Positions 13,560-28,324 of a stretch of 64,000 nucleotides of DNA are shown here, in pieces. The stretch lies in assembly GCF_000378965.1 (NCBI RefSeq), contig NZ_KB900536.1, positions 2,543,407 to 2,607,406 of the forward strand, read 5' to 3'. A program made the translations under genes and the position numbers. This stretch comes from Thioalkalivibrio thiocyanodenitrificans ARhD 1 (GTDB taxonomy: Bacteria > Pseudomonadota > Gammaproteobacteria > Ectothiorhodospirales > Ectothiorhodospiraceae). The stretch's first letter is position 1; each line of letters starts with the position of its first letter. Below the pieces are notes generated by a model that searched no databases, was not told the DNA's origin, and was given only the letters and a program-made list of their open reading frames with translations.

Positions 13560-13775
13560 CTTGTTGTCTCCAGGTCGTTGCATGTTCGGGTGGGGCCGGG
13601 CCCGATCAGCTACACTGTTATTGGAGGTTTCGCGGGTAACATATGGACATGGCGAGTGTTTGACGTCTAAAGTGACCCGGTTCCGGCCTGGATGGTCCGC
13701 TGAACCGACCTTGTGCGGCCACCGGCGCCGGGTATGCATGTTCTGATATGGGCCGGGCCAATCGGCCGGATTCAC

Positions 13776-14672
13776 ATGACCGCGGTGATCAATTTGGAAC
13801 GAGTGAGCCACTGGCTCGGACGGCTGGGCCCCGGGGGTCTTGCCGTCTGGGTGACCGCCGCCCTGCTGATCGCGCTGGCCTTCAGCCTGGCAAGGCTGAC
13901 CTGGGAGGCGCTGTACCCCGAGACGGTGGTCGCGGAGGCACCCGCGCCGGATCCGGCGATACCGGGTGCGGGCCTCAACGGGGTGTCCCCGTCGCCTCCC
14001 GCGCTGGATTCGGTGGCGCGCCTGCATCTGTTCGGCCAGGCCTCCCCCGCGGATCGGCCGACCATGGTGGACATCGACGCCCCCGAGACCCGGCTTCGCC
14101 TGCAGTTGCGGGGTGTGGTGGCGGCTGTCCCCTCGGGTCAGGGCATTGCGCTGATCGCCAGCGATTCCGGGGAGGAGCGCCACTACCTCCCAGGTGCGGA
14201 AATACCCGGCGGCGCCAGGCTCGAGCAGGTGCATCCGGATCGGGTGGTGCTGAGCCGGGCCGGGCGGTACGAGCTGCTGCGCCTGCCCAGGGACGAGCCC
14301 CTGTCCGGCGAGGCCCCGCAGGACCCCGCCGCGCAACCCGGGGCGGGCACCGGTGGGGCGTCCCTGCCGGCGGAGACACGCCGCCAGTGGCTCGAGGATC
14401 CCACGGCCTTGTTCGATGCGGTCCAGGTCCAGCCCGTCATGGAGGACGGTTCGATACACGGTTTTGCCATCTCGCCGCGCAGGGATGCCAGAATGTTTCG
14501 TGCGATCGGGCTGCGGCCCGGCGACGTGGTGACATCCGTCAACGGCATGACGGTGGCGGGAATGACGGATCCGACCGCCATACGGGACCAGTTGGCCGGG
14601 GCCAGCGAGATCAGGCTCGACATAGAGCGCAACGGGCGGCCCGATACGGTGGTCATTCCGATCGGGCAGTAA
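13776..14672 (+). CDS. gspC: Type II secretion system protein GspC
   Basis: A 298-residue inner-membrane protein that links the inner-membrane platform to the secretin. One transmembrane segment (about residues 25-42) follows a short cytoplasmic N-terminus. The periplasmic homology region contains LHLFG and RLQLRGVV, and the C-terminal part is a PDZ domain (AIGLRPGDVVTSVNGM). Starts at ATG 13776; a further in-frame ATG lies 42 bp upstream. First gene of gspC-D-E-F. The 272-bp gap before it holds the preceding terminator and no gene. Confidence 0.92.
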   Translation: MTAVINLERVSHWLGRLGPGGLAVWVTAALLIALAFSLARLTWEALYPETVVAEAPAPDPAIPGAGLNGVSPSPPALDSVARLHLFGQASPADRPTMVDIDAPETRLRLQLRGVVAAVPSGQGIALIASDSGEERHYLPGAEIPGGARLEQVHPDRVVLSRAGRYELLRLPRDEPLSGEAPQDPAAQPGAGTGGASLPAETRRQWLEDPTALFDAVQVQPVMEDGSIHGFAISPRRDARMFRAIGLRPGDVVTSVNGMTVAGMTDPTAIRDQLAGASEIRLDIERNGRPDTVVIPIGQ

Positions 14673-14720: not shown

Positions 14721-16733
14721 ATGATTGGTGTTAAACGAAGGGCGGGATACATGGTTGCCCGGCGATGCCGTCTTGCCGGGTTTGGGTTGCTGCTTGTGCT
14801 GTTCGCGGCACCCGGCTGGCTCAATGCCGATGACATTGTGCTCAACCTCAAGGAGGCTGATCTCCAGGCCCTGATCAGCATGGTCTCCGAGGAGACCGGC
14901 ACCAACTTCGTGGTGGACCCCCGGGTGCGCGGCCGTGTCACGGTGGTCTCCGGTGCGCCGGTCAGCCGGGACGAACTCTATCGCATCTTCCTTTCCGTTC
15001 TCCGTATCCACGGGTTCTCCGCGATCCCCGGCGAAGGGGTGGTCAAGCTGGTGCCCGATGCCCTGGCCAAGCAGGCCGAGGTGCCCACGGTCACCGAACC
15101 CGGCGTGCGCCGGGGTGACGAGTACGTCACCCGCGTGATTGCGGTGGATCACGTGGACGCGGCCCAGCTGGTGCCGATCCTGCGTCCCCTGGTGCCCCAG
15201 AGCGGTCATCTGGTGGCCTCGGCCGAATCCAACGTGCTCATCGTCTCCGATTCCGCGGCCAACGTGGATCGCATCGCGGAACTGGTGTCGCGCATCGACC
15301 TGGATGGTCGCGAGGAGATGGAGCTGATCCCGCTGCGGCATGCCTCCGCCGCCGAGGTGGTGAGGGTGCTGACCGGTCTGCAGGGCGGAGAAGAGCGTGC
15401 CCGGACCCGGGTGCACATGGTGGCCGACGAGCGGACCAACAGCATCCTGCTGGGCGGCGACCCCAAGCGCCGCGTGGCCCTGCGCGCGACGATCTCCCAT
15501 CTGGACACCCGGATCGACGGCGGCAATACCCAGGTGATTTATCTGCGCTACGCCTCCGCGGAGGAAATGGCCGAAGTGCTGCGGGGCCTGCTGGAGGGCA
15601 TGGATCTGCCGGAAGCCGGCGAAGGCCGCGCGGGCGCTCGGGGGGTGAGTATCCACTCCCACGAGAGCACCAATGCCCTGGTGCTCAACGGTCCTCCGGA
15701 TGTCGTGCGCGATCTTCGCGCGGTGATCCAGCAGTTGGATGTGCGCCGGGCCCAGGTGCTGGTGGAGGCCGTGATCGCCGAGGTGTCCTCGGAGAAGGCC
15801 GCTGAACTGGGCGTGCAGTGGGGCATTGGTGATCCGAGGAGCGGTGTGGGCGTGGTGAATTTCGGTCGCACGGGCTCCGGCATCGTGGAACTGGCCGGAG
15901 GCATCGATGCGTTCCTGCGCGGCGCCGTGGCGACGCCGCCGAGCCTGGGTGACGGCGCATTCATCGGAGGTGTCGGGCGTTCCGGTTCCACCACCATCGC
16001 CGCGCTGGTGCGGGCCCTTTCGGGCGACAGCTCCAGCAATATCCTGTCGACCCCGAGCCTGATGACCATGGACAACGAGGAGGCGGAGATCGTGGTGGGC
16101 CAGAATGTGCCCTTCATCGCGGGACGTTCCATCGAGCAGTCCGGACAGGCCTTCGATACCATCCAGCGCGAGGACGTGGGCGTGATGCTGCGCATCAAGC
16201 CCCAGATCAATGAAGGCAATGCCATCCGGCTGGAGATCGAACAGGAGGTCTCCCAGATCGCGCCGGGCGCCAGCACGGCGGCGGATCTCATTACCAACAA
16301 GCGCAGTCTGCGCACCATCGTCATGGTCGAGGACGGCCAGATGGTGGTGCTCGGCGGCCTCATCGACGATCAGCTCGTGCAGACCCGGGACAAGGTGCCC
16401 GGCCTTGGTGACATACCGGCCCTGGGCCGCCTGTTCCGCTATGACACCGCGCGCATGGAGAAGCGCAACCTGATGGTGTTCCTGCACCCGGTGATCGTGC
16501 GTGACGCCGCAGTGCAGGATCAGTTGACCTCCTCGAAGTACTCCTTCATCCGAGCCCAGCAGGTGGCCGCCCGGGGCCGGGACGTGCTGATGATGCCGGA
16601 TGACACATCACCGGTGCTGCCGCCCTGGGATGCATTGCTGGACCTGCCGCCACCGTTCGAAGCCGCCGAGGCGGTGTACACCCTGGAGGAACCGGGCAGC
16701 CTCAATGTGAGGCCGCCCCCGGCGAGGCCATGA
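14721..16733 (+). CDS. gspD: Type II secretion system secretin GspD
   Basis: The outer-membrane channel, 670 residues. A signal peptide (to about residue 36) precedes the N0 domain ([20 protein letters not shown]) and three N1-N3 repeats marked by [29 protein letters not shown] and [16 protein letters not shown]. The secretin core contains [30 protein letters not shown] and a C-terminal [15 protein letters not shown] lies before ATG 14721. The stop overlaps gspE by four bases. No pilotin-like gene is adjacent. Confidence 0.95.
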
Positions 16734-18289
16734 GCATACGCCCCTCAGTCGATGACGCGGGTCTTGCCGGGGAGGGACCGGCAGCCCCCTTGGCGCCCGA
16801 GGCCGATGAACGCCAGTTCCGCGGTCTGAGTTTCGGTTTCGCCCGGCGTCACGGCGTGGTGGTCCTGGAGGACGCCGGGGACGCCGGCGGACAGGCGCAC
16901 GTGGCCTGCCGCCCCGGCGTGAGCAGTGCCACGCTGGCGGAGCTGCGGCGGCACCTGGGCTGTCCCCTGAGCATCGAGCGCGTCTCCCAGGAGCGTTTCG
17001 ACGCCCTGCTTCGAGCCCGCTACGAACACAGCTCCAGTGACGCCATGCAGCTCATGGGCGACATGGGGGAAGAGGACCTCAACAGCGTCGCCCGGAGTCT
17101 CGCCGAACCCGAGGACCTGCTGGAGACGGAGGACGACGCGCCCATCATCCGGCTCATCAATGCCCTGCTCACCGAGGCGGTCAAGGAGAACGCCTCGGAC
17201 ATCCATGTGGAGCCCTTCGAGAACCGGCTGATCGTGCGCTTCCGGGTGGACGGCGTGCTGCGCCAGATCCTGGAGCCGCCGCGGGTGCTGGCACCGTTGA
17301 TCACTTCACGCATCAAGGTGATGGCACGCCTGGACATCGCGGAGAAGCGCCTGCCCCAGGACGGGCGCATCTCGCTGAAGGTGGCCGGGCGCGCCGTGGA
17401 CGTGCGCGTCTCCACCCTGCCGTCCGGCCATGGCGAACGGGTGGTGCTGCGCCTGCTGGACAAGCAGGCCGGCCGCCTGGATCTCACGCAGTTGGGGATG
17501 GACGACCGCACCCACGAGGTCATGCGCCGCGCCATTCACCGGCCCCACGGTATCCTGCTGGTCACCGGTCCCACCGGGTCGGGCAAGACCACCACCTTGT
17601 ACGCCGCGCTTTCGCAGCTCAACGATCGCAGCCGCAACATCCTCACGGTCGAGGATCCCATCGAGTACGATCTCGACGGCATCGGCCAGACCCAGATCAA
17701 CAGCAAGGTGGACATGACGTTCGCCCGGGGTCTGCGGGCCATTCTGCGCCAGGATCCGGACGTGGTGATGGTGGGCGAGATCCGTGACCTGGAAACGGTG
17801 CAGATCGCCGTGCAGGCGAGTCTCACCGGCCACCTGGTGCTGTCCACCCTGCACACCAACACGGCCGTCGGCGCCATCACCCGCCTGCGGGACATGGGGG
17901 TGGAGCCCTTCCTGCTCTCCTCGACGCTGGTGGCCATCCTGGCCCAGCGTCTGGTGCGCCTGCTGTGCGACCACTGCAAGGCGCCGTATACGGCCAACGA
18001 AAAGGACTGTCAGCTCCTGGATCTGCCGGCGGAGCCGGCACCCACCCTCTACCGCGCGGTCGGCTGCGAGCACTGCAATCAGCTGGGCTACCGGGGGCGC
18101 ACGGGGATCTACGAGCTGGTGGAGGTGGACGACGAATTGCGCGGCCTCATCCATGACGGCGCCGGCGAGCAGGTGCTGGAACGCCACGCGCGGCTCCATG
18201 GTCCAAGTATTCGTGCCGACGGCCGCCGCCGCATCCTCGCCGGCCACACCACGGTGGAAGAGGTGCTGCGGGTAACTAAAGAAGACTAG
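16730..18289 (+). CDS. gspE: Type II secretion ATPase GspE
   Basis: A 519-residue cytoplasmic hexameric ATPase that powers pseudopilus assembly. Walker A is [15 protein letters not shown], the Asp box is [10 protein letters not shown], Walker B is [11 protein letters not shown], and the His box is [11 protein letters not shown]. The four-cysteine zinc module (CDHCKAPY and CEHCNQLGY) is intact. The N-terminal domain that docks to GspL is present. ATG 16730 overlaps the gspD stop. Downstream, a 139-bp gap with nested inverted repeats separates it from gspF. Confidence 0.96.
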
Positions 18290-18294
18290 TGACA

Positions 18295-18400
18295 AGTGGC
18301 AAGTCTCAAGTGGCAAGGGACAACACCCTCACCCCGGTCCTCTCCCTGAGGGAGAGGGAGAAAGTCCTGTGATTTTCCTTGCCACTTGAGACTTGCCACT
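18295..18400. repeat. Nested inverted repeat between gspE and gspF
   Basis: A 24-bp sequence (18295-18318), built from heptamers AGTGGCA, AGTCTCA and AGTGGCA plus AGG, is matched perfectly in inverted orientation at 18377-18400. The 58-bp loop holds a second hairpin, CTCTCCC-TGA-GGGAGAG, within a CCCTCACCCC...GGGAGAGGGAGAA segment of a type I recognise as a common intergenic repeat of proteobacteria. A further decayed heptamer copy continues to about 18421. The element lies inside a gsp run, so it may modulate transcript ends between gspE and gspF. Confidence 0.8.
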
Positions 18401-18428
18401 GCCTTCAAGCCACTTGAGACTGCAGTCA

Positions 18429-19643
18429 ATGCCTGCCTTTGAATACAGTGCACTGAACCCCGGGGGGCGCGAGGTCCGCGGTGTCCTCGAGGGCGACACC
18501 CCGCGCCAGGTGCGGCAGCAGTTGCGCGACGGGGGACTGACGCCCCTGGAGGTGGAGGAGGTGCGCAGCCGCGAGGGGCGGCGGGTGCGCCTGCCGGGCT
18601 TCTCCCGCGGCATCAGCGCCATGGATCTGGCCCTGCTCACCCGCCAGCTTGCCACGCTGGTGCGCTCGGGCCTGCCCCTGGAGGAGGCGCTGGGCACGGT
18701 GGCGCGCCAGAGCGAGAAACCGCGTATCCGCAACATGCTCATGGCCGTGCGCACCCGGGTGATGGAAGGCCATTCGCTCGCCCGGGGGCTGGCCGACTTT
18801 CCCCACGTGTTCCCGGACATCTACCGCACCACCGTGGACGCGGGTGAACAGTCCGGCCACCTGGAGGTGGTGCTGGAACGCCTGGCCGATTACACGGAGA
18901 ACCGCCAGCAGATGCGCCAGAAGATCCAGCTGGCCATGTTCTATCCGGCCCTGCTCACGGGCATGGCCCTGCTGGTGACCGTGGCCCTGCTCACCTACGT
19001 GGTGCCGGAGGTGGTGCAGGTGTTCCAGGGCATCGGCCAGGAGCTGCCGTGGCTGACCCGCACCCTGATTGCGCTGAGCGACGGCCTGCGGGAGTACGGG
19101 CTGCTGATCCTGGTCGCCCTGGTGGCGGTCGTGGTGCTCGCCGGCTGGCTGCTCAGAAAACCCGGACCGCGCAGCGCATGGCACCGATTGCAGCTTCGCC
19201 TGCCGCTTTCCGGCCGGATGACCCGGGGGATGAACACGGCCCGGTTTGCGCGCACGCTTTCCATCCTGTCGGCCAGCGGCGTCGCGGTGCTTGAGGCGCT
19301 TCGCATCGCGGCCCAGGTAGTGGCCAACCTGCCCATGCGCGAGGCCATCCAGACCGTCACCCAGCGGGTGCGCGAGGGGTCGGGCATCGGCGACGCCCTG
19401 GAGCGTTCCGGCTATTTTCCGCCGATCACCGTGCATCTGATCAAGAGCGGCGAAGCCAGCGGCAGTCTCGACGACATGCTCGAGCGCGCCGCCGTGAACC
19501 AGGAGCGGGAACTGGAGACGCGCATCGGCATGCTCATGGGCGTCCTCGAACCGCTCCTGATCCTGGTGATGGGCATGATCGTGCTGGTGATCGTGCTGGC
19601 CATCCTGTTGCCCATCTTTGAACTCAACCAACTGGTGAACTGA
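18429..19643 (+). CDS. gspF: Type II secretion inner-membrane platform protein GspF
   Basis: A 404-residue polytopic protein on which the pseudopilus is assembled. It begins MPAFEYSALNPGGREVRGVLEGD and has two copies of the T2SSF domain: one around SAMDLALLTRQLATLVRSGLPLEEAL, one around RFARTLSILSASGVAVLEAL. The GEQSGHLE and SGEASGSLDDML motifs follow, each before membrane segments. The ATG at 18429 gives the canonical N-terminus; an in-frame TTG at 18393 lies inside the heptamer repeat. In standard T2SS operons gspG comes next; here three unrelated genes intervene. Confidence 0.95.
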   Translation: MPAFEYSALNPGGREVRGVLEGDTPRQVRQQLRDGGLTPLEVEEVRSREGRRVRLPGFSRGISAMDLALLTRQLATLVRSGLPLEEALGTVARQSEKPRIRNMLMAVRTRVMEGHSLARGLADFPHVFPDIYRTTVDAGEQSGHLEVVLERLADYTENRQQMRQKIQLAMFYPALLTGMALLVTVALLTYVVPEVVQVFQGIGQELPWLTRTLIALSDGLREYGLLILVALVAVVVLAGWLLRKPGPRSAWHRLQLRLPLSGRMTRGMNTARFARTLSILSASGVAVLEALRIAAQVVANLPMREAIQTVTQRVREGSGIGDALERSGYFPPITVHLIKSGEASGSLDDMLERAAVNQERELETRIGMLMGVLEPLLILVMGMIVLVIVLAILLPIFELNQLVN

Positions 19644-19644
19644 G

Positions 19645-19998
19645 ATGATTGCGCCAAACCGTTTGCTGCCGGCGTGTCTGCTGACGCTCGTGGCGGCCCT
19701 GGGCGCACCGGCCTGTCAGACCCTGGAAGAACCGGCCTCCGAGACGGCCGATGTGGCGAGGCTCGTGGTCTTTCCCGCCCCCGGATCCGCGCTCGATCCG
19801 GCCTCCGAAGCGGGCCTCGGCCGCCTTTCCGTGGCGGCCGGCGTGCCGCTGGAGTACATGGATCGGGCGGGCGGCGGTTACCGGGTGGTCACCGTGGAGC
19901 CCGTCACCGCGAACCAGGTGCGCGAGATCATCCGGCGTCTGCTGGATCACCCGGCCGTGACCCACGCGGCGGAGGACCGGCGCGTGACGCATCAGTGA
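19645..19998 (+). CDS. Small lipoprotein resembling a subtilase propeptide (I9-like)
   Basis: A 117-residue protein starting one base after the gspF stop. The N-terminus has a hydrophobic signal with a lipobox-like LGAPAC. The C-terminal part, with YRVVTVEPV, VREIIRRLLDHPAV and AAEDRRV, follows the pattern of inhibitor-I9 propeptides, whose last strand ends before a cleavage point like EPDRRV. Such domains fold or inhibit subtilisins, and an S8 protease starts 18 bp downstream. The protease has its own prodomain, so this would be an additional free-standing one. The assignment rests on pattern and neighbourhood only. Confidence 0.55.
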   Translation: MIAPNRLLPACLLTLVAALGAPACQTLEEPASETADVARLVVFPAPGSALDPASEAGLGRLSVAAGVPLEYMDRAGGGYRVVTVEPVTANQVREIIRRLLDHPAVTHAAEDRRVTHQ

Positions 19999-20016
19999 GG
20001 GGCAGGTGACCGTGTC

Positions 20017-22200
20017 ATGAATGCACGCACCATGAGACGTTGCTGCACATGGCTGGTCGCGGTCGCATGTGTCCTGCCCCTGTCGGTCCTTGCCACACCC
20101 ACGGATCGCATCATCGTCAGGGTGAGCGAGGCCATGCGCCCGGCGGTGCTTGCCGGTGGCGCCCCCGCGCCGCGCGCCGACGAACGGGTGGCGGTGGCTT
20201 CCGCCGCGACCGGGCGCGACGTGACCTGGCTGCGGGCCATGTCCGGCGGTGCCGACGTGCTGCGCCTGCCCGAGGCGTTGCCCGAGGATGAGGTGATGGC
20301 GGCCGCGCAGGCGCTGATGGCCCTGCCCGGGGTGGAGTATGCCGTGCCGGACCGGCGGGTGTTTCCCATGCGCCAGCCCAATGATCCCGGGTTCAGCGAC
20401 CAGTGGCATCTTCAGCCCCCCCCGCCCGCCGGTGACGATTTCGGTATCAACGCGCCGGCCGCCTGGGACGTCACCACGGGCGATGCCGTCACCGTGGCCG
20501 TGGTGGATACGGGCATCCGCTTCACGCACGAGGATCTGCGCGGCAGGATCCTGCCGGGCCATGACTTCGTCAGCGAAGACGTCCGGGTGGTGGACGGCCA
20601 GGTGCAACGGTTCTTCTTCACCGCGAACGACGGCGATGCGCGTGACCCCGTGGCCGCCGATCCCGGTGACTGGGTGACCGGCAGCGAGGGCGTGGCCTGG
20701 GGCTGTTCCTCCGGCTCCAGCTCCTGGCACGGCACCTACATGGCCGGGATCGCCGCCGCCGCGACCGACAACGGCGTGGGTCAGGCGGGCGTCAGTTGGG
20801 GTGCCATGATCCTGCCGGTCCGGGCCTTGGGCAAATGCGGCGGCTACACCTCCGACGTCGTGGACGGTATCCGCTGGGCGGCAGGCCTGCCTGTGCCGGA
20901 TGCGCCCGTCAACCCGTACCCCGCGCGCGTCATCAATCTCAGCCTGGGCGGCCGGGGGATTTGCGACAGCTTCTGGCAGAGCGCGATCAACGACGCCACG
21001 AATGCGGGCACACTGGTGGTCACCGCGGCCGGCAATGCATCGCCGCTCGGCGAGTCACTGGACCTCGTGTCCTGGACGCCTGCCACCTGCGGCAACACCC
21101 TGACCGTGGCCGCGACGGATCGCGATGGCAATCGCGCCGCCTTCAGCAACTACGGCACGGCCGTGGACATCAGCGCGCCCGGCATCGACATCCGCTCGAC
21201 CGGCAATGCCGGCATCACCTACCCGCTGGAGGATGGCTATGGCAGGGTCACCGGCACCAGCGGTGCCAGCGCGCAGGTGGCCGGCGTCGCCGCGCTGGTC
21301 CTCAGCCGCAATCCCGGCCTTGCGCCGGGCCAGGTGGCGGCGATCCTCACGGGGAACGTGACCGGGTTTCCGGGGGCCGGCTGCGGTTCCCAGGTGGGTT
21401 GCGGCAGCGGCATTCTCAACGCGGGCCTGGCGGTGGCGGGCACCCCGGACGCGGGCGGGCGGCCTGCGGGCACGGTGGACTTCGGCGAGGTGTCCGGCGC
21501 GGACAAGGATGCGGTGGTCACGTCCGGCCCCGTGGTGTTGAGTATCCCGACCGGCGGGCTCCCCGTCTCCGTGCAGGGCGGTGAGTACAGCATCGGGTGC
21601 GACGGCGGCTTCACCGCGCAGGCGGGCACGGCCGGTGACGGAGACACGATCTGCCTGCGCCATGCGGCATCGGCCTACCCGGAACACCCGGCCGCCACCT
21701 TGCTCGCCGTGGGCAATCACCGGGCGGCCTTCGTGAGCACCACCGGTCCCGCGGACACCCGGCCCGATGCACTGTCCGATTTCATGCCGCAGACGGGTGT
21801 CAACCCGGAGGCCACGGTGACCTCGGAGATCATCCGGGTGCAGGGCATCGACGCGCCCGCGCCGGTGCAGGTCAGCGGCGACGCACCCGGGCGCAACAGC
21901 CGCTACAGCCTGAACTGCGACTCGGCGTCGGCCGGATTCATCGCCGAGGCCGGGTACATCGCACCCGGCGGCAGCATCTGCGTACAGCACGTGGCCCCAG
22001 AGGAGCGGGGTACCGAGGCCACCACGACCCTGACCATCGGCGGCGAGTCCGTCGCGTTCACCACCACGACCCGGCGCTCCTCCGGCGGCGGCGGTGCGTT
22101 GGCGCCGTGGTTCCTGGCGGTCCTGCTGGCCTACGCGGGTCTGCTGCGGTTCAGGAGGATCAGAATGCCGCCGCAGGCGAGCCCCGCGAGGGCCCCGTAG
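20017..22200 (+). CDS. Subtilisin-like (S8) serine protease with GlyGly-CTERM tail
   Basis: A 727-residue exported protease. Signal peptide to about residue 26; prodomain to about 115, ending VEYAVPDRRV; S8 domain about 120-475. The triad is Asp164 (VAVVDTGI), His238 (WHGTYMAG) and Ser415 (GTSGASAQ), with oxyanion Asn340 (AAGN). GTSGAS replaces the usual GTSMAA. Two similar beta-rich repeats follow, around residues 490-590 and 600-680. The C-terminus is a GlyGly-CTERM signal: GGGG at 690-693, a transmembrane segment and a basic tail (RFRRIR). Family knowledge says such proteins are T2SS substrates processed by rhombosortase, and the gene for one follows in convergent orientation. Confidence 0.9.
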   Translation: MNARTMRRCCTWLVAVACVLPLSVLATPTDRIIVRVSEAMRPAVLAGGAPAPRADERVAVASAATGRDVTWLRAMSGGADVLRLPEALPEDEVMAAAQALMALPGVEYAVPDRRVFPMRQPNDPGFSDQWHLQPPPPAGDDFGINAPAAWDVTTGDAVTVAVVDTGIRFTHEDLRGRILPGHDFVSEDVRVVDGQVQRFFFTANDGDARDPVAADPGDWVTGSEGVAWGCSSGSSSWHGTYMAGIAAAATDNGVGQAGVSWGAMILPVRALGKCGGYTSDVVDGIRWAAGLPVPDAPVNPYPARVINLSLGGRGICDSFWQSAINDATNAGTLVVTAAGNASPLGESLDLVSWTPATCGNTLTVAATDRDGNRAAFSNYGTAVDISAPGIDIRSTGNAGITYPLEDGYGRVTGTSGASAQVAGVAALVLSRNPGLAPGQVAAILTGNVTGFPGAGCGSQVGCGSGILNAGLAVAGTPDAGGRPAGTVDFGEVSGADKDAVVTSGPVVLSIPTGGLPVSVQGGEYSIGCDGGFTAQAGTAGDGDTICLRHAASAYPEHPAATLLAVGNHRAAFVSTTGPADTRPDALSDFMPQTGVNPEATVTSEIIRVQGIDAPAPVQVSGDAPGRNSRYSLNCDSASAGFIAEAGYIAPGGSICVQHVAPEERGTEATTTLTIGGESVAFTTTTRRSSGGGGALAPWFLAVLLAYAGLLRFRRIRMPPQASPARAP

Positions 22201-22718
22201 AGGTGCGCATCCACGATGACGTTGCCGCCGATCAGCCGGGCCGTACCCTCACCCGGGCCCAGGAACTGTTCCACAGTGAGTTTGACCGCAAGCAATCCCA
22301 GCAGGACCGCGCAGATACCGGGCAGCCGCCGGAATCCGGCCAGGGCGCCGGCCGCGATGAGCCCGTGGAGGATGCCCGAGAGGCCCGCGTACCAGGGCAC
22401 CTGGGGCGACAGCAGGAGCAGGCCCAGGCTGACGCCGGCCCCGCAGGCCAGCACCGTCGCCGCCCAGCGCCCGGGTGTCATGGCCGGGCCCAGCAGGGCC
22501 CAGACGACGGCAAGCCCCGCCAGGTTCATCAGCAGGTGGCCCCAGCCCAGATGCACCAGGTGCCCGGTCACCAGACGCCAGGGCTCCGCCAGGACCACCG
22601 CGCGTTCGAGGCGCCAGCCTTCGGGCCCGCCGGTGATCTGCAGGGCCACGGCCGCGGCAGCCAGGGCGATCGGCAGCGCCCAGCGGGCAGGTGTGGCGGA
22701 TTGCCGTGAACCGGTCAT
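22131..22718 (-). CDS. rrtA: Rhombosortase (rhomboid-family GlyGly-CTERM protease)
   Basis: A 195-residue intramembrane serine protease with about six transmembrane segments. Rhomboid signatures are GHLVHLGWGHLLMN, the catalytic Ser114 in GLSGILHG and the catalytic His172 in DAHLYGALAG. The rhombosortase group cleaves the C-terminal GlyGly-CTERM tail of secreted proteins; the likely substrate is the neighbouring S8 protease. Its last 70 bp overlap the 3' end of that protease gene on the opposite strand. It is transcribed against the gsp genes, from the short region before gspG. Confidence 0.9.
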   Translation of the reverse strand: MTGSRQSATPARWALPIALAAAAVALQITGGPEGWRLERAVVLAEPWRLVTGHLVHLGWGHLLMNLAGLAVVWALLGPAMTPGRWAATVLACGAGVSLGLLLLSPQVPWYAGLSGILHGLIAAGALAGFRRLPGICAVLLGLLAVKLTVEQFLGPGEGTARLIGGNVIVDAHLYGALAGLACGGILILLNRSRPA

Positions 22719-22781
22719 GGGGGCCGTCCGTCAAAAATGGCAGAATAGTCCGTGTTGCGAACCACAGGAAAACTTCGGGTC

Positions 22782-23231
22782 ATGAAACAGAGTATTTCAC
22801 GCAATCGACGCGCAACGCGCGGATTCACCCTGATCGAGGTCATGGTCGTGGTGGTCATCCTCGGCATTCTGGCCGCCATCGTGGTGCCGCGCATCATGGA
22901 TCGCCCGGACGAGGCGCGCGTCACCAAGGCGCGCAACGACATCCGGGCCCTGGAGAGCGCGCTCAACCTCTACCGGCTGGACAACTTCCGCTATCCCACC
23001 ACGGACCAGGGTCTGCGCGCCCTGGTGGAGCGCCCGGGGGGACAACCCGAGGCCCGCAACTGGCGCAGCGGCGGATACATGGACCGACTGCCCACCGACC
23101 CCTGGGGCAATCACTACCAGTATGTGCACCCGGGCCGCCACGGGGACATCGATATCTACAGCTTCGGCGCCGACGGCCGGCCGGGCGGCGAAGGCATCAA
23201 CGCCGAGATCGGCAACTGGAACATCGATTGA
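22782..23231 (+). CDS. gspG: Type II secretion major pseudopilin GspG
   Basis: A 149-residue major pseudopilin. The leader MKQSISRNRRATRG is cut by prepilin peptidase before FTLIEVMVVVVILGILAAIVVP, with the invariant Glu at +5. The C-terminal domain shows the GspG calcium-loop pattern (LPTDPWGNHYQY, SFGADGRPGGEG). AGGAAA lies before ATG 22782. It is divergent from the rhombosortase gene and heads gspG-H-I-J-K-L-M, in which consecutive genes mostly overlap by four bases. Confidence 0.95.
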   Translation: MKQSISRNRRATRGFTLIEVMVVVVILGILAAIVVPRIMDRPDEARVTKARNDIRALESALNLYRLDNFRYPTTDQGLRALVERPGGQPEARNWRSGGYMDRLPTDPWGNHYQYVHPGRHGDIDIYSFGADGRPGGEGINAEIGNWNID

Positions 23232-23776
23232 GCAGCACGCCGCCGGACAATCGGGTGCGCCCGGTGCGGGTCCGGGGTTTCACCCTCATCGAACTGGTGG
23301 CGGTCCTGTTCATCATCGGCGTGATGGCCGCCTTCGCCGTGATCGCCATGGGCGACGGCGGCCATGACCGGATCATGGAGCAGGAGGCCCGGCGCCTGGC
23401 GAGCCTTCTGGAACTGGTCCGGGACGAGGGCATCCTCAGCGGCGAGACCCAGGCGGTCGGGTTCACCCGCCAGGGTTACGTCTTTCTTCGCCAGTACCGG
23501 GTGGATGAGCGCAGTTACGAGTGGCTGCCGGTGGAGGATGATCGGGTGCTGCGCCCCCGGGACGTGGCGGACCGCAACCTGGAGTTCACCCTGTATGTGG
23601 AGGGGGTCGCGGTGACGCTGCCCCGTGCCGCCGACCGGCCGCCGCCCCATGTCTATCTCGGCCTGGCGGGCGAGATGACCCCCTTTCAACTGGACATCGC
23701 CCCCGAGGGCGGGCGCACGGCCGCCTGGCAGGTGCGCAGCCTGCCCGGCGGGCGCGTCGAGATGCGAAGGCCTTGA
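23228..23776 (+). CDS. gspH: Type II secretion minor pseudopilin GspH
   Basis: A 182-residue pseudopilin with the processing site RVRG before FTLIELVAVLFIIGVMAAFAVIA, including the +5 Glu. The rest, with LLELVRDEGILSGETQAVGF, is typical of GspH. The best start is TTG 23228, overlapping the gspG stop as TTGA; GTG codons within the leader are alternatives. The stop overlaps the next gene, again as TTGA (23773-23776). Confidence 0.88.
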   Translation: MSSTPPDNRVRPVRVRGFTLIELVAVLFIIGVMAAFAVIAMGDGGHDRIMEQEARRLASLLELVRDEGILSGETQAVGFTRQGYVFLRQYRVDERSYEWLPVEDDRVLRPRDVADRNLEFTLYVEGVAVTLPRAADRPPPHVYLGLAGEMTPFQLDIAPEGGRTAAWQVRSLPGGRVEMRRP

Positions 23777-24195
23777 GAACAGTGGCAAGTGGCAAGTGGC
23801 AAGTGGCAAGGACGGCACAGCAGGGTGGGTTCACGCTGCTGGAGGTGCTGGTGGCCGTGGCCATTCTCGGGGTGGCGCTGGGGGCGCTCATCAAGGTGGG
23901 CAGCGACAATGCCGCCAATACCGCCTACCTGCGTGACCGGACCTATGCCCACTGGGTGGCGCTCAACCAGGTGACCCGCTACCAGGTGGGATTGGAGGCG
24001 GTGCACGGCGGCACCCGGCGCGGCGTCAGCGAGATGGCCGATCGCCGGTGGTACTGGCAGGCCACGCTGAGCGACGAGGACGTCAGGGTGGAGGGCATCG
24101 CGCTGGAAGGCCTGACCCGTCTGGAGTTGGAGGTTCGCGATCGGGATGACGCTGACGCGACGCCACTGGCCCGGGTGGTGGGGTTTCTGCAATGA
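23773..24195 (+). CDS. gspI: Type II secretion minor pseudopilin GspI, leader encoded by heptamer repeat
   Basis: A 140-residue pseudopilin; cleavage is expected at QQGG before FTLLEVLVAVAILGVALGALI. The leader before it (TVASGKWQVAR) is the translation of four AGTGGCA heptamers at 23781-23808. The likely start is TTG 23773 overlapping the gspH stop; GTG codons at 23782 and 23803 within the repeat are other in-frame options. GspI with GspJ and GspK forms the pseudopilus tip. The leader is removed after insertion, which may explain why the repeat is tolerated. Confidence 0.88.
   Translation: MRTVASGKWQVARTAQQGGFTLLEVLVAVAILGVALGALIKVGSDNAANTAYLRDRTYAHWVALNQVTRYQVGLEAVHGGTRRGVSEMADRRWYWQATLSDEDVRVEGIALEGLTRLELEVRDRDDADATPLARVVGFLQ
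23781..23808 (+). repeat. AGTGGCA heptamer array, four copies, in the gspI leader
   Basis: Four exact tandem copies of AGTGGCA, preceded by AAC and followed by AGG. An array of equal copy number and with the same immediate flanks occurs at the start of the next gene, gspJ (24199-24226). Three units equal seven codons, so gain or loss of one or two units would change the reading frame. Confidence 0.95.
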
Positions 24196-24863
24196 AACAG
24201 TGGCAAGTGGCAAGTGGCAAGTGGCAAGGGAAGGCCGGAAGTCCAACCCAGGGCGGGTTTACGCTGCTGGAGCTGCTGGTGGCGCTTTCGGTGTTCGCGT
24301 TCGTGTCCGTGATGGCCTACGGGGGATTGCGGGTGGTGCTCGATACCCGGGGACACACGGATCAGGCGTCCCGGGACCTGGGCGAACTGCAGGTGGCCCT
24401 CACGCTGCTGAGCAGGGATCTGGCCCACGTGGTGGCGCGTCCGGTGCGGGACGTCCATGGCGATCCCCAGGCGCCCCTGCGCTTCAACGCCTACAGCGAC
24501 CGGCCCCGCCTGGAAGTGGTGCGCACCTCGTCCCGCTCGGGCCTGCAGCGCGTGGCGTGGGAGATCGACGAGGCGCGGCTTTACCGGATGTACTGGACCG
24601 CACTGGATGGCGCCGATCCCGCCGAGCCCCAGGGGCGCCTGCCCGTCATGGGTCCGGTGGAGGATGCGCAGCGCACCTCACGCGGCGTGACCGACTGGAA
24701 CCTGCGGTTCCATTATCACCTGCCCGACGGCACCTTCGGCACCTCCGAAAACTGGCCGCTGGAAATCAACCCGGGTGCCCTGGATGAGTTGCCCGTCGCG
24801 CTGGAACTCACCCTGGCGCTGGACGGCGGCGGGACGGTCACCCGCTGGCTGGCGGTGCAATGA
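24192..24863 (+). CDS. gspJ: Type II secretion minor pseudopilin GspJ, leader encoded by heptamer repeat
   Basis: A 223-residue pseudopilin. ATG 24192 overlaps the gspI stop (ATGA). The leader MKQWQVASGKWQGKAG is encoded by a four-copy AGTGGCA array (24199-24226) and precedes the site TQGG before FTLLELLVALSVFAFVSVMAYGG. The remainder, with LQVALTLLSRDLAHVVARPVRD, fits GspJ. It overlaps gspK by four bases. The leader is longer than the usual 6-15 residues. Confidence 0.9.
   Translation: MKQWQVASGKWQGKAGSPTQGGFTLLELLVALSVFAFVSVMAYGGLRVVLDTRGHTDQASRDLGELQVALTLLSRDLAHVVARPVRDVHGDPQAPLRFNAYSDRPRLEVVRTSSRSGLQRVAWEIDEARLYRMYWTALDGADPAEPQGRLPVMGPVEDAQRTSRGVTDWNLRFHYHLPDGTFGTSENWPLEINPGALDELPVALELTLALDGGGTVTRWLAVQ
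24199..24226 (+). repeat. AGTGGCA heptamer array, four copies, in the gspJ leader
   Basis: Four exact tandem AGTGGCA units directly after ATGAAAC, followed by AGGG. It is read in a different codon phase from the gspI copy relative to the unit boundaries but yields the same peptide cycle (QVASGKW). This suggests duplication or repeated insertion of one element at two adjacent gene junctions. Confidence 0.95.
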
Positions 24864-25699
24864 TGCCTCGCGCCTCGACACCACCGGGATCCGCGTCTTC
24901 GCGCGGCCAGCGTGGCGTGGCGCTGATCACCGCCCTGCTGGTGGTGGTGCTGGCCACGGTGGCCGCCGTTTCCATGACCTCGCGGCAGCATCTGGACATC
25001 CGCCGGGCAGGCAACGTGCTCAACCAGGACCAGGCCTGGCTCACGGTGCAGGCCGCCGAGCGCTATGCCCTCAAGCTGCTTACCGGACCCGAAGCGGAAG
25101 GCGATCGGGAGTTGCCCTGGGAAGGCTGCCTGTCGCCCGTGCTGCGGGTCAACCTGGCCGATACCGAGATGGACATCTGGGTCGAGGACATGCATTGTCG
25201 TTTCAATCTCAACAACCTCTCCAGCGGCAACGAACTGGCCGTGAACGGGTTCATCCGCCTGCTGGAGAACCTGCGCGCGGAGTACCCGGAACTGGCGTTC
25301 GATCCTGAGCAGGTGGTGGCGGCGGCCCGGGACTGGATGAACCCCGAGACCGACGACCCGGTCTACCGGCTCGCCGATCCGCCCTACCTGAGCGCCAACC
25401 GTATGATGATGGTGGCCGCGGAGATGCGGCTGGTGCACGGTGTATCCGCCGAGTTGTGGGAGGCGCTCGCACCGCTCGTCACGGCCCTTCCCGCGGCAGG
25501 CACCCAGCTGGACACCGAGAACGCCGCCGACATGCTGCGCGAGGCCTTTCCGGCCACCGGGGCCGCCCAGACGCGCGCCACCTACTACCGCCTGGGCGTC
25601 CATGCGCAACTGGCCGGACGCCGCCTGCTCATGTGCAGCCTGCTGGACACCGCTTCGGGGCGGGTTGTCTGGCGTCTGCAGGGGGCGTGCGATGCCTGA
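24860..25699 (+). CDS. gspK: Type II secretion minor pseudopilin GspK
   Basis: A 279-residue pseudopilin that caps the pseudopilus. The processing region SRGQRG before VALITALLVVVLATVAAVSM lacks the +5 glutamate, as is normal for GspK. The large globular domain with CRFNLNNLSSG, VVAAARDWMNPETDDPVYR and LPAAGTQLDTENA-type segments matches the family. ATG 24860 overlaps the gspJ stop. There is a 56-bp gap before gspL, the largest in this part of the run. Confidence 0.92.
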   Translation: MMPRASTPPGSASSRGQRGVALITALLVVVLATVAAVSMTSRQHLDIRRAGNVLNQDQAWLTVQAAERYALKLLTGPEAEGDRELPWEGCLSPVLRVNLADTEMDIWVEDMHCRFNLNNLSSGNELAVNGFIRLLENLRAEYPELAFDPEQVVAAARDWMNPETDDPVYRLADPPYLSANRMMMVAAEMRLVHGVSAELWEALAPLVTALPAAGTQLDTENAADMLREAFPATGAAQTRATYYRLGVHAQLAGRRLLMCSLLDTASGRVVWRLQGACDA

Positions 25700-25755
25700 T
25701 ACGATATGTCGCCGGGCGCCGACGCCCAACCGCCACTGATGGGAGCACCGTCAAG

Positions 25756-27015
25756 ATGATCCAGCGAAACCTGCTGCTGCGATTGCCGGAACACGATGGC
25801 CCGGCGGCCTTCGTGCTGCGTGACAGCGCCGGCAACCTCCTGATGGGCGGCGCGGATGAGCTTTCCCGGCTGGCGGAGCTTGCCCGCAGCGTACCCGTGC
25901 CCACGGTGCGCGTGCTGGTGCCCGGCACGCGGGTGCTGCTGACCCGGACCACGGTGCCCACCCGAAACCCCCGGGCCCTGCAGCGGGCCCTGCCCTACGC
26001 CCTGGAGGACCAGCTGGCCGGGGACGTGGAAGCCCTGCATTGCGTGCCCGGCCCGGTGGAGGAAGACAACACCGTGCCGGTGGCGGTGGTGGAACGCGCT
26101 CTGATGGATGACTGGCGTGAACGCCTCGCTGCCGCCGGACTCGATGCCCGCGCCCTGGTGCCGGAGACGGCCGTCCTGCCCCGGGACGAGGAGGGCGGCT
26201 GGCTGCTCTGGCTCGAGGGTGACGAGGCGTGGCTGGCCCTCGGACCGGGGGACGGTCTGGCCCTGGACCGGGACAATGCCGCCATGCTCGTGCGGATGCG
26301 TCTGGACGAGACGCCCGACGGTCAGCACCCGGCCCGCATCGTGATCGTGTGTCACGGACCCGCGCGGGAGTCGGACAGTGCCCTGGACGAGCCGGGGGTC
26401 TTCGGAGGCGTGCCGGTGGTGCGCCGAGAGAGCGAGGAACCGCTGTTGGAGGAGATCTCCCGGCACCTGCCCCCGCGTCCGCCGTTCAATCTGCTCGTTG
26501 GGCCCTATGGCCGTCGCGAGCAGTGGAGCCACCTGTGGCGCCCCTGGCGGGTCGCCGTGATCATCGCGGTGCTCTGGGGGGCAGTCCACCTGATCCAGTT
26601 GCATACCGAGATCCGGTACATGGGCCAGCAGCAGGCCATACTGGACGATCGCATGCGCGATATCTATCAGGCCGCGTTCCCCGGCAGCCGGGCCGGCGGC
26701 GATCCGAGACGTCAGATGGAGAGCGCGCTGGTGAGCCTGACCCGGGGCGGGTCCGATGAGGCCGGCCACGATTTCCAGGCGGCGCTCGCCCATGTGGCCC
26801 CCGTCCTGGTGGAGGTGCCGGGCTTCCGGATTGAGAGCCTGCGCTACCGGCCGGGCCAGATGGATCTGGACCTGCGGCTCGACAGTCTCCGGGCCCTCGA
26901 CGGACTGAAGCAGCGCCTGGAGCGGGGGGAGCAGTGGTCCGTGGAGATCCTCTCGGCCAGTGCGCAGGACGACTTCGTGGAAAGCCGTATTCAGGTGAGG
27001 AGGGCGGGCACATGA
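25756..27015 (+). CDS. gspL: Type II secretion protein GspL
   Basis: A 419-residue bitopic protein that recruits GspE to the membrane. The cytoplasmic actin-like domain (about residues 1-255) includes VRVLVPGTRVLLTRTTVP and ALPYALEDQLA. One transmembrane segment (about 268-283, RVAVIIAVLWGAVHLI) precedes a periplasmic ferredoxin-like domain. ATG 25756 gives the family N-terminus MIQRNLLLRLPEHDG. It overlaps gspM by four bases. Confidence 0.92.
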   Translation: MIQRNLLLRLPEHDGPAAFVLRDSAGNLLMGGADELSRLAELARSVPVPTVRVLVPGTRVLLTRTTVPTRNPRALQRALPYALEDQLAGDVEALHCVPGPVEEDNTVPVAVVERALMDDWRERLAAAGLDARALVPETAVLPRDEEGGWLLWLEGDEAWLALGPGDGLALDRDNAAMLVRMRLDETPDGQHPARIVIVCHGPARESDSALDEPGVFGGVPVVRRESEEPLLEEISRHLPPRPPFNLLVGPYGRREQWSHLWRPWRVAVIIAVLWGAVHLIQLHTEIRYMGQQQAILDDRMRDIYQAAFPGSRAGGDPRRQMESALVSLTRGGSDEAGHDFQAALAHVAPVLVEVPGFRIESLRYRPGQMDLDLRLDSLRALDGLKQRLERGEQWSVEILSASAQDDFVESRIQVRRAGT

Positions 27016-27509
27016 ATGCCTTCTGGGCAAGGCTCGGTCCCCGTGACCGGCGCATCCTGATCATCGGAGCCGTGTGCCTGGGCGTCATTCTGCCTTACTG
27101 GCTGGTCCTGCAATCGCTCACCGAGCAGGCCGAACGCATGGAGCGGTCCGTGAGCGCACTGTATGAAGACGTGGCCTGGATGCAGGCGGCCGCCGAGCGG
27201 GTGCGCGGTGTCGAGGGCGGCGCCACAGGGGCGCCCGCTGCCGCGGGAGACGGGTCCCCCCTGAGTGTCATCGACCGTACGGCGCGGGAAGGGCCCCTGA
27301 CCGGGACCGTGCGCCGCGTGCAGCCGGAGGGTGCCGATGCCGTGCGCGTGTGGCTGGAGGACGCGCCGTTCGACGATCTGATCCTCTGGCTTGGTACCCT
27401 GGAGACCCGCTACGGGCTGCGCGTCACGAGCCTGGTGGTGGACCGTCAGCCGGTGGAGGGGCGCGTGAATGCGCGCTTGAGCCTGGAACGGGCGGGACGG
27501 GGACAATGA
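27012..27509 (+). CDS. gspM: Type II secretion protein GspM
   Basis: A 165-residue partner of GspL. A short cytoplasmic start (MNAFWARLGPRDRR) is followed by one transmembrane helix (about residues 16-34) and a periplasmic coiled stretch, then a small alpha/beta domain ending VNARLSLERAG. ATG 27012 overlaps the gspL stop. The stop codon lies at the first unit of a GATGAAG heptamer array. Confidence 0.9.
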   Translation: MNAFWARLGPRDRRILIIGAVCLGVILPYWLVLQSLTEQAERMERSVSALYEDVAWMQAAAERVRGVEGGATGAPAAAGDGSPLSVIDRTAREGPLTGTVRRVQPEGADAVRVWLEDAPFDDLILWLGTLETRYGLRVTSLVVDRQPVEGRVNARLSLERAGRGQ

Positions 27510-27528
27510 TGAAGGATGAAGGATGAAG
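27508..27528 (+). repeat. GATGAAG heptamer array, three copies
   Basis: Three exact tandem GATGAAG units at the gspM/gspN junction. The first contributes to the gspM stop codon. The last forms a GAAGG about ten bases before the TTG proposed as gspN start, so the array may serve as its ribosome-binding site. Confidence 0.9.
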
Positions 27529-27538
27529 GGCGTCTGAC

Positions 27539-28324
27539 TTGAGGAGTGATCGCCGCGCGCGCCGCACCTGGGTGGCCTGGGCACTGACGGGGCTGCTGGC
27601 CTACGGGGTGTTCCTGGTGGCCCTGCTGCCGGCGGGTCTGGTCTGGGATCAGGCCGGACAGCGGGGCCTGTTGCCCGGCGGGCTGTCGGCCCGGGCCGTC
27701 ACCGGCACGCTATGGTCCGGATCCGCCGCCCGTGTCAGGCTGCCAGGGGCGGTGACGGTCGAGCGGGTCGCCTGGCGCTTCCGGCCCGGCGCGTTGTTGG
27801 GTGGACGCATGGGCTGGACGGTGTCCGCCGATCTGGCCGATGGGCACCTGCAGGGCGGCGTGGCCGCCGGCATCGGTGGTGTCCGGGTGACCGATACCCG
27901 GGCCGACCTGCGTGCCGCCGCGGCCATTTCCCCGTATCTCGAACTCCCCGTGGTCATCGAAGGTCGCCTGCTGCTGGACCTGCGACACCTGGTTCTGGAC
28001 CGTGACGGACGGGTGCGTGAGGCCGAGGGCGTGCTGGGGTGGCTGGAGGCGGGCGCGGGCATTCCCGAGCCCGTGGCGCTTGGGGATCTGCGCGCGGAAC
28101 TGCAGGCCACCGGGGAGGGCGGGCTGCGGCTGCTGATCGGTGAACAGGGCGGGCCGCTGGTGGCACGGGGCCGGGTGGACGTGGTCCCCGGCGGTCAGTA
28201 TCGCATCGAAGGGGAGGCCGGCACCCGCGAGGGCGCCGACCCGCGTCTGGTCCAGGCGTTGCGCATGCTGGGCACGCCGAATCCCGACGGCACGGTGCCC
28301 ATTGGCCTGTCCGGTTCGCTTTGA
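27539..28324 (+). CDS. gspN: Type II secretion protein GspN
   Basis: A 261-residue protein with one N-terminal transmembrane segment (about residues 10-30) and a beta-rich periplasmic region with LPGGLSARAVTGTLWSGSAARVRLPG, the pattern of the T2SS protein N family. The final segment is TVPIGLSGSL. The first usable start is TTG 27539, preceded by GAAGG from a heptamer repeat; this start is not certain. Its role in secretion is poorly defined; it is absent from many T2SS clusters. Confidence 0.85.
   Translation: MRSDRRARRTWVAWALTGLLAYGVFLVALLPAGLVWDQAGQRGLLPGGLSARAVTGTLWSGSAARVRLPGAVTVERVAWRFRPGALLGGRMGWTVSADLADGHLQGGVAAGIGGVRVTDTRADLRAAAAISPYLELPVVIEGRLLLDLRHLVLDRDGRVREAEGVLGWLEAGAGIPEPVALGDLRAELQATGEGGLRLLIGEQGGPLVARGRVDVVPGGQYRIEGEAGTREGADPRLVQALRMLGTPNPDGTVPIGLSGSL

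Follow-up and report, generated by a model that had tools for sequence, protein, structure and literature searches.

What does a type II secretion system (T2SS) gain from carrying a subtilase, a membrane-embedded sorting enzyme and a small lipoprotein in the middle of its own gene cluster? This question is raised by a 64,000-nucleotide stretch of the Thioalkalivibrio thiocyanodenitrificans ARhD 1 genome (the window; coordinates below count from its first letter), in which the gsp run stops after the gene for the inner-membrane platform protein, gspF (18393..19643, + strand), and resumes with the gene for the major pseudopilin, gspG (22752..23231, + strand). Between them lie the genes of a predicted propeptide-like lipoprotein of 117 amino acids (19645..19998, + strand; hereafter LIP), an S8-family serine protease, or subtilase (20017..22200, + strand; hereafter S8), and, on the opposite strand and divergent from gspG, a rhombosortase, i.e., a rhomboid intramembrane protease (22131..22718, - strand). 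A preliminary description of the locus, made from its letters, had placed this interruption at the right coordinates, with LIP starting one base past the gspF stop codon, and had read the set as a self-contained export-and-release module. The analysis confirms the finding and widens it somewhat: the set is a variant of the known rhombosortase/GlyGly-CTERM systems, joined to a broad linkage between rhombosortase and gspG, and what is new in it is a prodomain-like lipoprotein partner outside the Pfam and NCBIfam families tested.

The linkage extends well beyond the window. Rhombosortases scoring over the family cut-off are found in 131 of the 370 genomes surveyed in the class (133 matches) and in none of 14 control genomes. 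When the window itself, six matches at contig ends (G183, G208, G325, G242, G249, and G270; G, L, and f denote genomes, loci, and families of the survey), and three loci with no BLAST match to the window rhombosortase (L169, L170, and L171) are set aside, 123 parsed loci are left; a count of 132 used elsewhere in the analysis adds nine loci from a search of relatives. The gsp genes in the survey loci were named by BLAST to the window proteins (E 1e-4), and a rhombosortase was counted as next to gspG if the centres of the two genes were less than 1 kb apart in a locus with at least two gsp genes. Counted in this way, rhombosortase adjoins gspG in 43 of the 123 loci and in 23 of the 65 families with a parsed rhombosortase, for example at L037, L127, and L133. 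The two genes are divergent in 41 of these pairs, the other two, from one family, running in the same direction, and gspF also lies within 4.5 kb in 11 of the 43. As a control, 15 rhomboids below the rhombosortase cut-off were inspected, and none of them has a gsp gene within 1.5 kb on each side. Of the 43 gspG-adjacent loci, three contain LIP and four have an S8 match at any position; the linkage between rhombosortase and gspG is therefore far wider than the combination of LIP and S8. Evidence that rhombosortase marks a subclass of T2SS was sought in 2011 and not found, as far as the part of that report drawn on here goes (Haft and Varghese, PMC3237569; the other papers cited by PMC number are likewise drawn on in part), and the titles and abstract openings of the open-licence literature yielded no statement of the adjacency. 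The pairing described here suggests such a link, in that the C-terminal sorting enzyme would go with a T2SS of a recognisable kind.

Or the position within the T2SS cluster may be an accident: a cargo and its sortase would have landed between gspF and gspG, and the adjacency, inherited from that one event, would be functionally meaningless. Indeed, 80 of the 123 rhombosortase loci are not beside gspG, and LIP, S8, and rhombosortase occur together without gsp genes in the stretches examined of L204, L205, L248, and L283. Against a single event stand the recurrence of the adjacency across so many families, its nearly constant divergent orientation, and its absence around the control rhomboids, and S8 or I9-like genes are found at the gspF/gspG junction, or directly past gspF, in five families (f1, f77, f34, f83, and f51). 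We regard an accidental position as unlikely, while granting it some weight. Since sets of LIP, S8, and rhombosortase are seen without gsp genes in the stretches examined, and pairs of rhombosortase and gspG without LIP or S8, the parts evidently combine in several ways; the set is thus present as first described, but not as a self-contained unit of the T2SS.

The second part of the answer concerns LIP, which consists of a predicted signal peptide, a cysteine at position 24, and an I9-like core that begins near residue 35 and runs to residue 117. It matches no Pfam or NCBIfam family, and had been called the least described part of the locus. When profiles of seven LIPs and of eight neighbouring S8 prodomains are aligned, they match with a probability of 98.9% over 82 columns (hhalign, E 1.5e-17), and the LIP profile also picks up the prodomain ends of other S8 proteases. 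The homologous segment within the window S8 is its own cis prodomain, approximately residues 28–118 (20098..20370, + strand). An AlphaFold2 model of LIP has the element order and topology of a prodomain, its core exceeding 90 in predicted local distance difference test (pLDDT), and the VIA structure comparison places the subtilisin propeptide 1scj_B among the best matches (Z 7.0). The prodomain assignment owes its specificity to the sequence profile, and the structure by itself does not discriminate. Searching solved structures with LIP profiles gave nothing significant, Proteinase K appearing at E 0.78. The predicted model of S8 is poor (mean pLDDT 44), its residues 29–111 showing the element order of LIP. 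A cysteine occupies the lipobox position in all of 18 aligned LIPs, many of them with canonical boxes (this alignment leaves out L189, L198, L201, L202, L216, and L275). Near the C-terminus, 10 of the 18 carry D-[RK]-x-x-x-H-Q, where S8 prodomains tend to PDxRxxP. The propeptide-like lipoprotein, suggested at first from the sequence, is thus borne out as a prediction by the profile match, the predicted fold, and its conservation beside the protease.

That protease has, in order, a signal peptide, its own prodomain, a catalytic domain (residues 155–448; 20479..21360, + strand; PF00082, E 8.4e-54), a C-terminal region, and a GlyGly-CTERM tail (residues 690–714; 22084..22158, + strand). The triad Asp164/His238/Ser415 is present and is invariant across seven aligned S8 proteins. 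The tail, SSGGGGALAPWFLAVLLAYAGLLRFRRIR, has the tripartite form of a Gly-rich motif, a transmembrane stretch, and basic residues, matching the pattern GGGG, transmembrane stretch, RFRRIR that had been pointed out beforehand. Its assignment as GlyGly-CTERM stands in part: it passes TIGR03867, the MprA-form model, with 21.7 bits against a cut-off of 19.7 in the protein scan, but for the general model, TIGR03501, the protein gives no row at E 1. When scanned against the whole genome, TIGR03867 finds the S8 tail (25.7 bits) as the sole place over the cut-off, and none in 14 control genomes, while TIGR03501 finds no place over its cut-off in this genome, and one of the 14 control genomes is over it. 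The opposite-strand rhombosortase, also recognized in the preliminary description, scores 144.5 bits on TIGR03902 (cut-off 84), with Ser114 in GLSG and His172 in AHLYG. From what is known of the family, we take these two residues to be catalytic.

A rhombosortase would probably cleave the S8 tail, and S8 would be exported by the T2SS encoded around it, by analogy with characterized family members. Because its tail is the only TIGR03867 match and nothing exceeds the TIGR03501 cut-off genome-wide, the set appears to be a “dedicated” system with a single cargo, as Haft and Varghese use the term (PMC3237569), with the proviso that such scans could miss cargo having other kinds of tail. The dedicated systems in that report, including MprA, likewise consist of one S8-type GlyGly-CTERM protein adjoining one rhombosortase; the window differs in adding a prodomain-like lipoprotein and in its place within a T2SS cluster. 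VesB and the rhombosortase RssP of Vibrio cholerae provide another parallel, a GlyGly-CTERM serine protease that is processed by rhombosortase and localized to the surface by the T2SS; VesB is trypsin-like, unlike S8, and the excerpts of these accounts describe no LIP-like partner (PMC6219818, PMC13393428). In V. cholerae, rhombosortase processing leads to surface association, and release is a later step for some of the cargo (PMC6219818, PMC13393428). “Release,” as the locus was first labelled, should hence be replaced by surface anchoring, sometimes followed by release.

How far the association of LIP with S8 spreads can be followed at several distances. Within the genus, the order gspF-LIP-S8-rhombosortase-gspG is kept in four of five genomes (the own genome, G001, G003, and G004), with the protease tail of G004 out of frame; the fifth, G002, has no rhombosortase match, and its GspF is only 33% identical. 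The same order and strands recur in family f77, in two genomes of one genus (L134 and L147), where LIP again begins one base after gspF and is 28% identical to the window LIP. A looser form is found in family f34 (L070 of G069), running gspF-S8-LIP-S8(GlyGly)-other genes-rhombosortase-gspG. At L070:1420-6855, LIP thus lies between two S8 genes directly after gspF, and the genes before rhombosortase and gspG include an apparent glutamate dehydrogenase, judged by reading the sequence. In family f83, S8 directly follows gspF in L191, and gspF is followed by S8 and then by LIP in G227. In family f51, the gspF/gspG junction holds a weak I9-like match and no S8 (L202:1456-1809, G367); the protein has a Sec-type signal and no lipobox. 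The gene order first proposed for a survey holds in most genomes of the genus, in f77, and loosely in f34, but not across rhombosortase loci generally, LIP being present in so few of the gspG-adjacent ones.

Over the 370 class genomes, the LIP profile (E 0.001) matches in 33, many of the matches lying inside open reading frames (ORFs) of S8 length, and in 11 a match lies in a small ORF of less than 200 codons. An S8 gene stands beside the small ORF in seven of these 11 (the own genome, G069, G223, G112, G305, G191, and G227). Among 397 genomes of the phylum, matches occur in 24. Furthermore, a scan of named genomes with an S8 alignment, of which the best 80 loci were kept, revealed a LIP-like neighbour beside S8 in at least 10, a number to be read in view of how the loci were obtained, namely through S8, and of the truncation of several at contig ends. 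With a rhombosortase, a LIP-profile match beside S8 occurs in two metagenome-assembled genomes (MAGs) labelled Thiobacillus denitrificans (L204 and L205), a Betaproteobacteria MAG (L248), and a Polaromonas MAG (L283). LIP-S8 pairs also occur in Deltaproteobacteria/Syntrophaceae MAGs (L218, L227, L230, and L255), with no rhombosortase in the stretches examined; at L218 and L230, S8 terminates in a different sort of hydrophobic, basic tail. In L216 (a Gammaproteobacteria MAG) and L275 (labelled Halothiobacillus neapolitanus), it was an S8-prodomain match that revealed the small neighbour, and a rhombosortase is alongside. LIP homologues thus accompany S8 genes in Gamma-, Beta-, and Deltaproteobacteria, the Gammaproteobacteria of GTDB including the former Betaproteobacteria, and the LIP profile picks out proteins left unnamed by every family library tested. 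As another S8 beside T2SS-like genes, Methylibium rhizosphaerae has an S8 gene immediately followed by ORFs that match gspG, gspF, and gspE (L234:6842-9722), with no LIP or rhombosortase in the stretch examined.

What could a second prodomain do? The reading that we favour, and hold to be rather probable, is that LIP acts in trans as a prodomain tethered to the membrane, silencing S8 or helping it to fold before export. On synthesis, S8 would carry a signal peptide and its own prodomain, and its GlyGly-CTERM tail would hold it in the inner membrane. LIP, a free-standing and, we infer, lipid-anchored copy of the S8 prodomain, would dock on the folded protease in the periplasm, placing its C-terminus in the active-site cleft, and would keep the enzyme inactive, perhaps aiding its folding as well, until it leaves the cell. 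Rhombosortase would cut the tail, and the product would be lipid-modified and anchored at the surface by the T2SS, as expected from the V. cholerae members of the family. T2SS cargo leaves the periplasm folded (PMC10128026), which obliges a cell that exports a subtilase to keep the enzyme silent until then; a tethered prodomain encoded by a gene of its own, if real, would be a general answer to this problem. The locus may offer a view of how a dangerous enzyme is managed during its export, and the arrangement recurs in other bacteria. Small, free-standing mimics of subtilase prodomains are already known as stand-alone I9-type inhibitors in Pleurotus, yeast, and Arabidopsis, and as TgMIC5 and Plasmodium SUB1-ProM, the gene of the last lying near subtilase genes; those treated in the relevant part of that account are eukaryotic and none is described as a lipoprotein, while the putative partner in the window is a GlyGly-CTERM protease beside T2SS genes (PMC6993865). 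A T2SS-linked I9 lipoprotein was not found in the titles and abstract openings of the open-licence literature.

The nearest precedent bears on silencing and folding alike. In Aeromonas sobria, the subtilase ASP has a separately encoded neighbour, ORF2, which is both its chaperone and its temporary inhibitor: ORF2 is required for ASP maturation, its gene adjoins the protease gene, and its C-terminus sits at the catalytic site with a half-maximal inhibitory concentration of 84.3 nM (PMC5638518). LIP may similarly be an external foldase in the first place, like ORF2 or the lipase foldases, with inhibition as a by-product, and prodomains in general act as both chaperone and inhibitor (PMC6993865). 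ASP, however, has no propeptide (PMC9549277), whereas the window S8 has its own, so that a trans foldase is not strictly required and the window pair falls outside the ASP/ORF2 type. The neighbour also differs, being prodomain-like with a putative lipobox, and the accounts of ASP, in the parts drawn on, mention neither a GlyGly-CTERM tail nor a rhombosortase (PMC5638518). A role mainly in folding is therefore a minority possibility, which we rate as rather doubtful.

Alternatively, LIP may act at the surface or in the periplasm to ward off foreign subtilases, from neighbours or predators, and have no partner in the adjacent S8. The weak I9-like protein of L202 (G367), in a T2SS cluster with no S8 beside it, would fit this, as would L189, L198, and L201, where no S8 was seen in the short stretches examined. 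Against it, an S8 gene adjoins in seven of the 11 small-ORF genomes, and 10 of the 80 named-genome loci have such a neighbour. In addition, LIPs and neighbouring S8 prodomains pair broadly alike in a tree, at weak branch support. This tree contains 20 LIPs and the prodomains of 15 out of 20 S8 sequences, the other five having been left out because the pattern for the catalytic Asp motif did not match them; 19 LIPs fall on one side with a support of 42 and L178 falls among the prodomains, so a single origin of LIP is not claimed. We consider a defensive role improbable. The ratio of nonsynonymous to synonymous substitution (dN/dS) between the window and its closest relative, L038, is 0.26 for LIP, 0.27 for S8, and 0.15 for rhombosortase, and LIP thus behaves as a real gene. 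That LIP is a decaying, functionless duplicate of the S8 prodomain is very improbable, for although two LIP pairs have higher ratios (0.47 in L034/L035 and 0.72 in L134/L147), the window pair and L204/L205 (0.33) stay low and the cysteine and the C-terminal motif are common to several classes.

The reading of LIP as a tethered prodomain acting on S8 meets resistance from several sides. With a prodomain in S8 itself, the need for a second copy is not obvious. LIP is rare at rhombosortase loci (three of 123), the LIP of G227 comes after S8 and not before it, and no S8 was seen within 1.5 kb or less on each side of the small ORF in G375, G062, G120, and G367. The window lipobox, APA-C, is weak, poorer than the LLAGC or LMTGC of its relatives, and the small homologues L201 and L202 show no lipobox. 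The structural matches to 1scj_B and to 1spb_P tie with unrelated ferredoxin-like folds in Foldseek and VIA, the ferredoxin-like fold predicted for LIP being a common one for which unrelated structures score equally high. Finally, none of 11 LIPs reaches the gathering score of the Pfam family Inhibitor_I9 (PF05922): the window LIP has no match, and the other 10 have only sub-threshold matches to I9 and to the fervidolysin prodomain, the best on PF05922 being 14.4 bits where 21.2 are needed. A wider picture that joins the two parts of the answer is offered as tentative, and as a whole we would sooner bet against it than for it. It supposes that rhombosortase is a built-in accessory of a large gammaproteobacterial subclass of T2SS, its gene standing back to back with that of the major pseudopilin. 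At the gspF/gspG junction, some members of the subclass would in addition encode a subtilase and a membrane-tethered trans copy of its prodomain, both lipid-anchored in the envelope, whose separation on export would switch the protease on.

One genome of the genus bears on an older puzzle. Thioalkalivibrio sulfidophilus HL-EbGr7 was listed in 2011 as having a rhombosortase without a GlyGly-CTERM protein, and the reasons offered, in the part of the report drawn on, were problems with sequencing or gene finding, decay, or a divergent target (PMC3237569). G004 is very probably this strain. That it truly lacks a GlyGly-CTERM-like tail was considered and rejected: in its S8 gene (L034:8880-9100), such a tail is present in another frame, beside a run of ten G in glycine codons. 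The exception of 2011 is probably explained by this out-of-frame tail. The shift itself may be due to sequencing error, decay, or phase variation, which are alike compatible with the single sequence.

Gene junctions around S8 are tight. LIP and S8 overlap by 4 nucleotides (nt) at their junction in six of 12 measured loci (L134, L147, L204, L205, L216, and L275), and LIP ends 4–99 nt before S8 in the other six, the ORF starts having been chosen mechanically; the 4-nt overlap suggests, from its spacing, that translation of the two may be coupled. S8 and rhombosortase are convergent and overlap tail to tail by 34–96 nt in 10 of the 11 loci with a value: 70 nt in the window (22131..22200), L038, and L035, 73 in L134 and L147, 67 in L204 and L205, 53 in L248, 96 in L283, and 34 in L275, with a gap instead in L216. 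No overlap value was given to L034, whose frame is broken. In the window, the S8 stop codon (22198-22200) ends two bases short of the His172 codon of rhombosortase (22203-22205).

The surrounding genes form a gspC-N cluster. Upstream on the + strand lie gspC (13713-14672), gspD (14721-16733), and gspE (16730-18289), each over its NCBIfam cut-off, as are gspF (TIGR02120, 519.2 bits against 424), gspG (TIGR01710, 197.9 bits against 88.85), gspI, gspJ, gspK, and gspL. For gspH, gspM, and gspN, matches to T2SS models are below cut-off, gspH having been scanned as a piece without its start. Scans of 19550-22850 for consensus promoters and terminators found nothing. Downstream, gspH to gspN (23228..28324, + strand) follow in the same order as in relatives, their starts being approximate, and for gspG the ATG at 22782 is, judged by eye, a likelier start than 22752.

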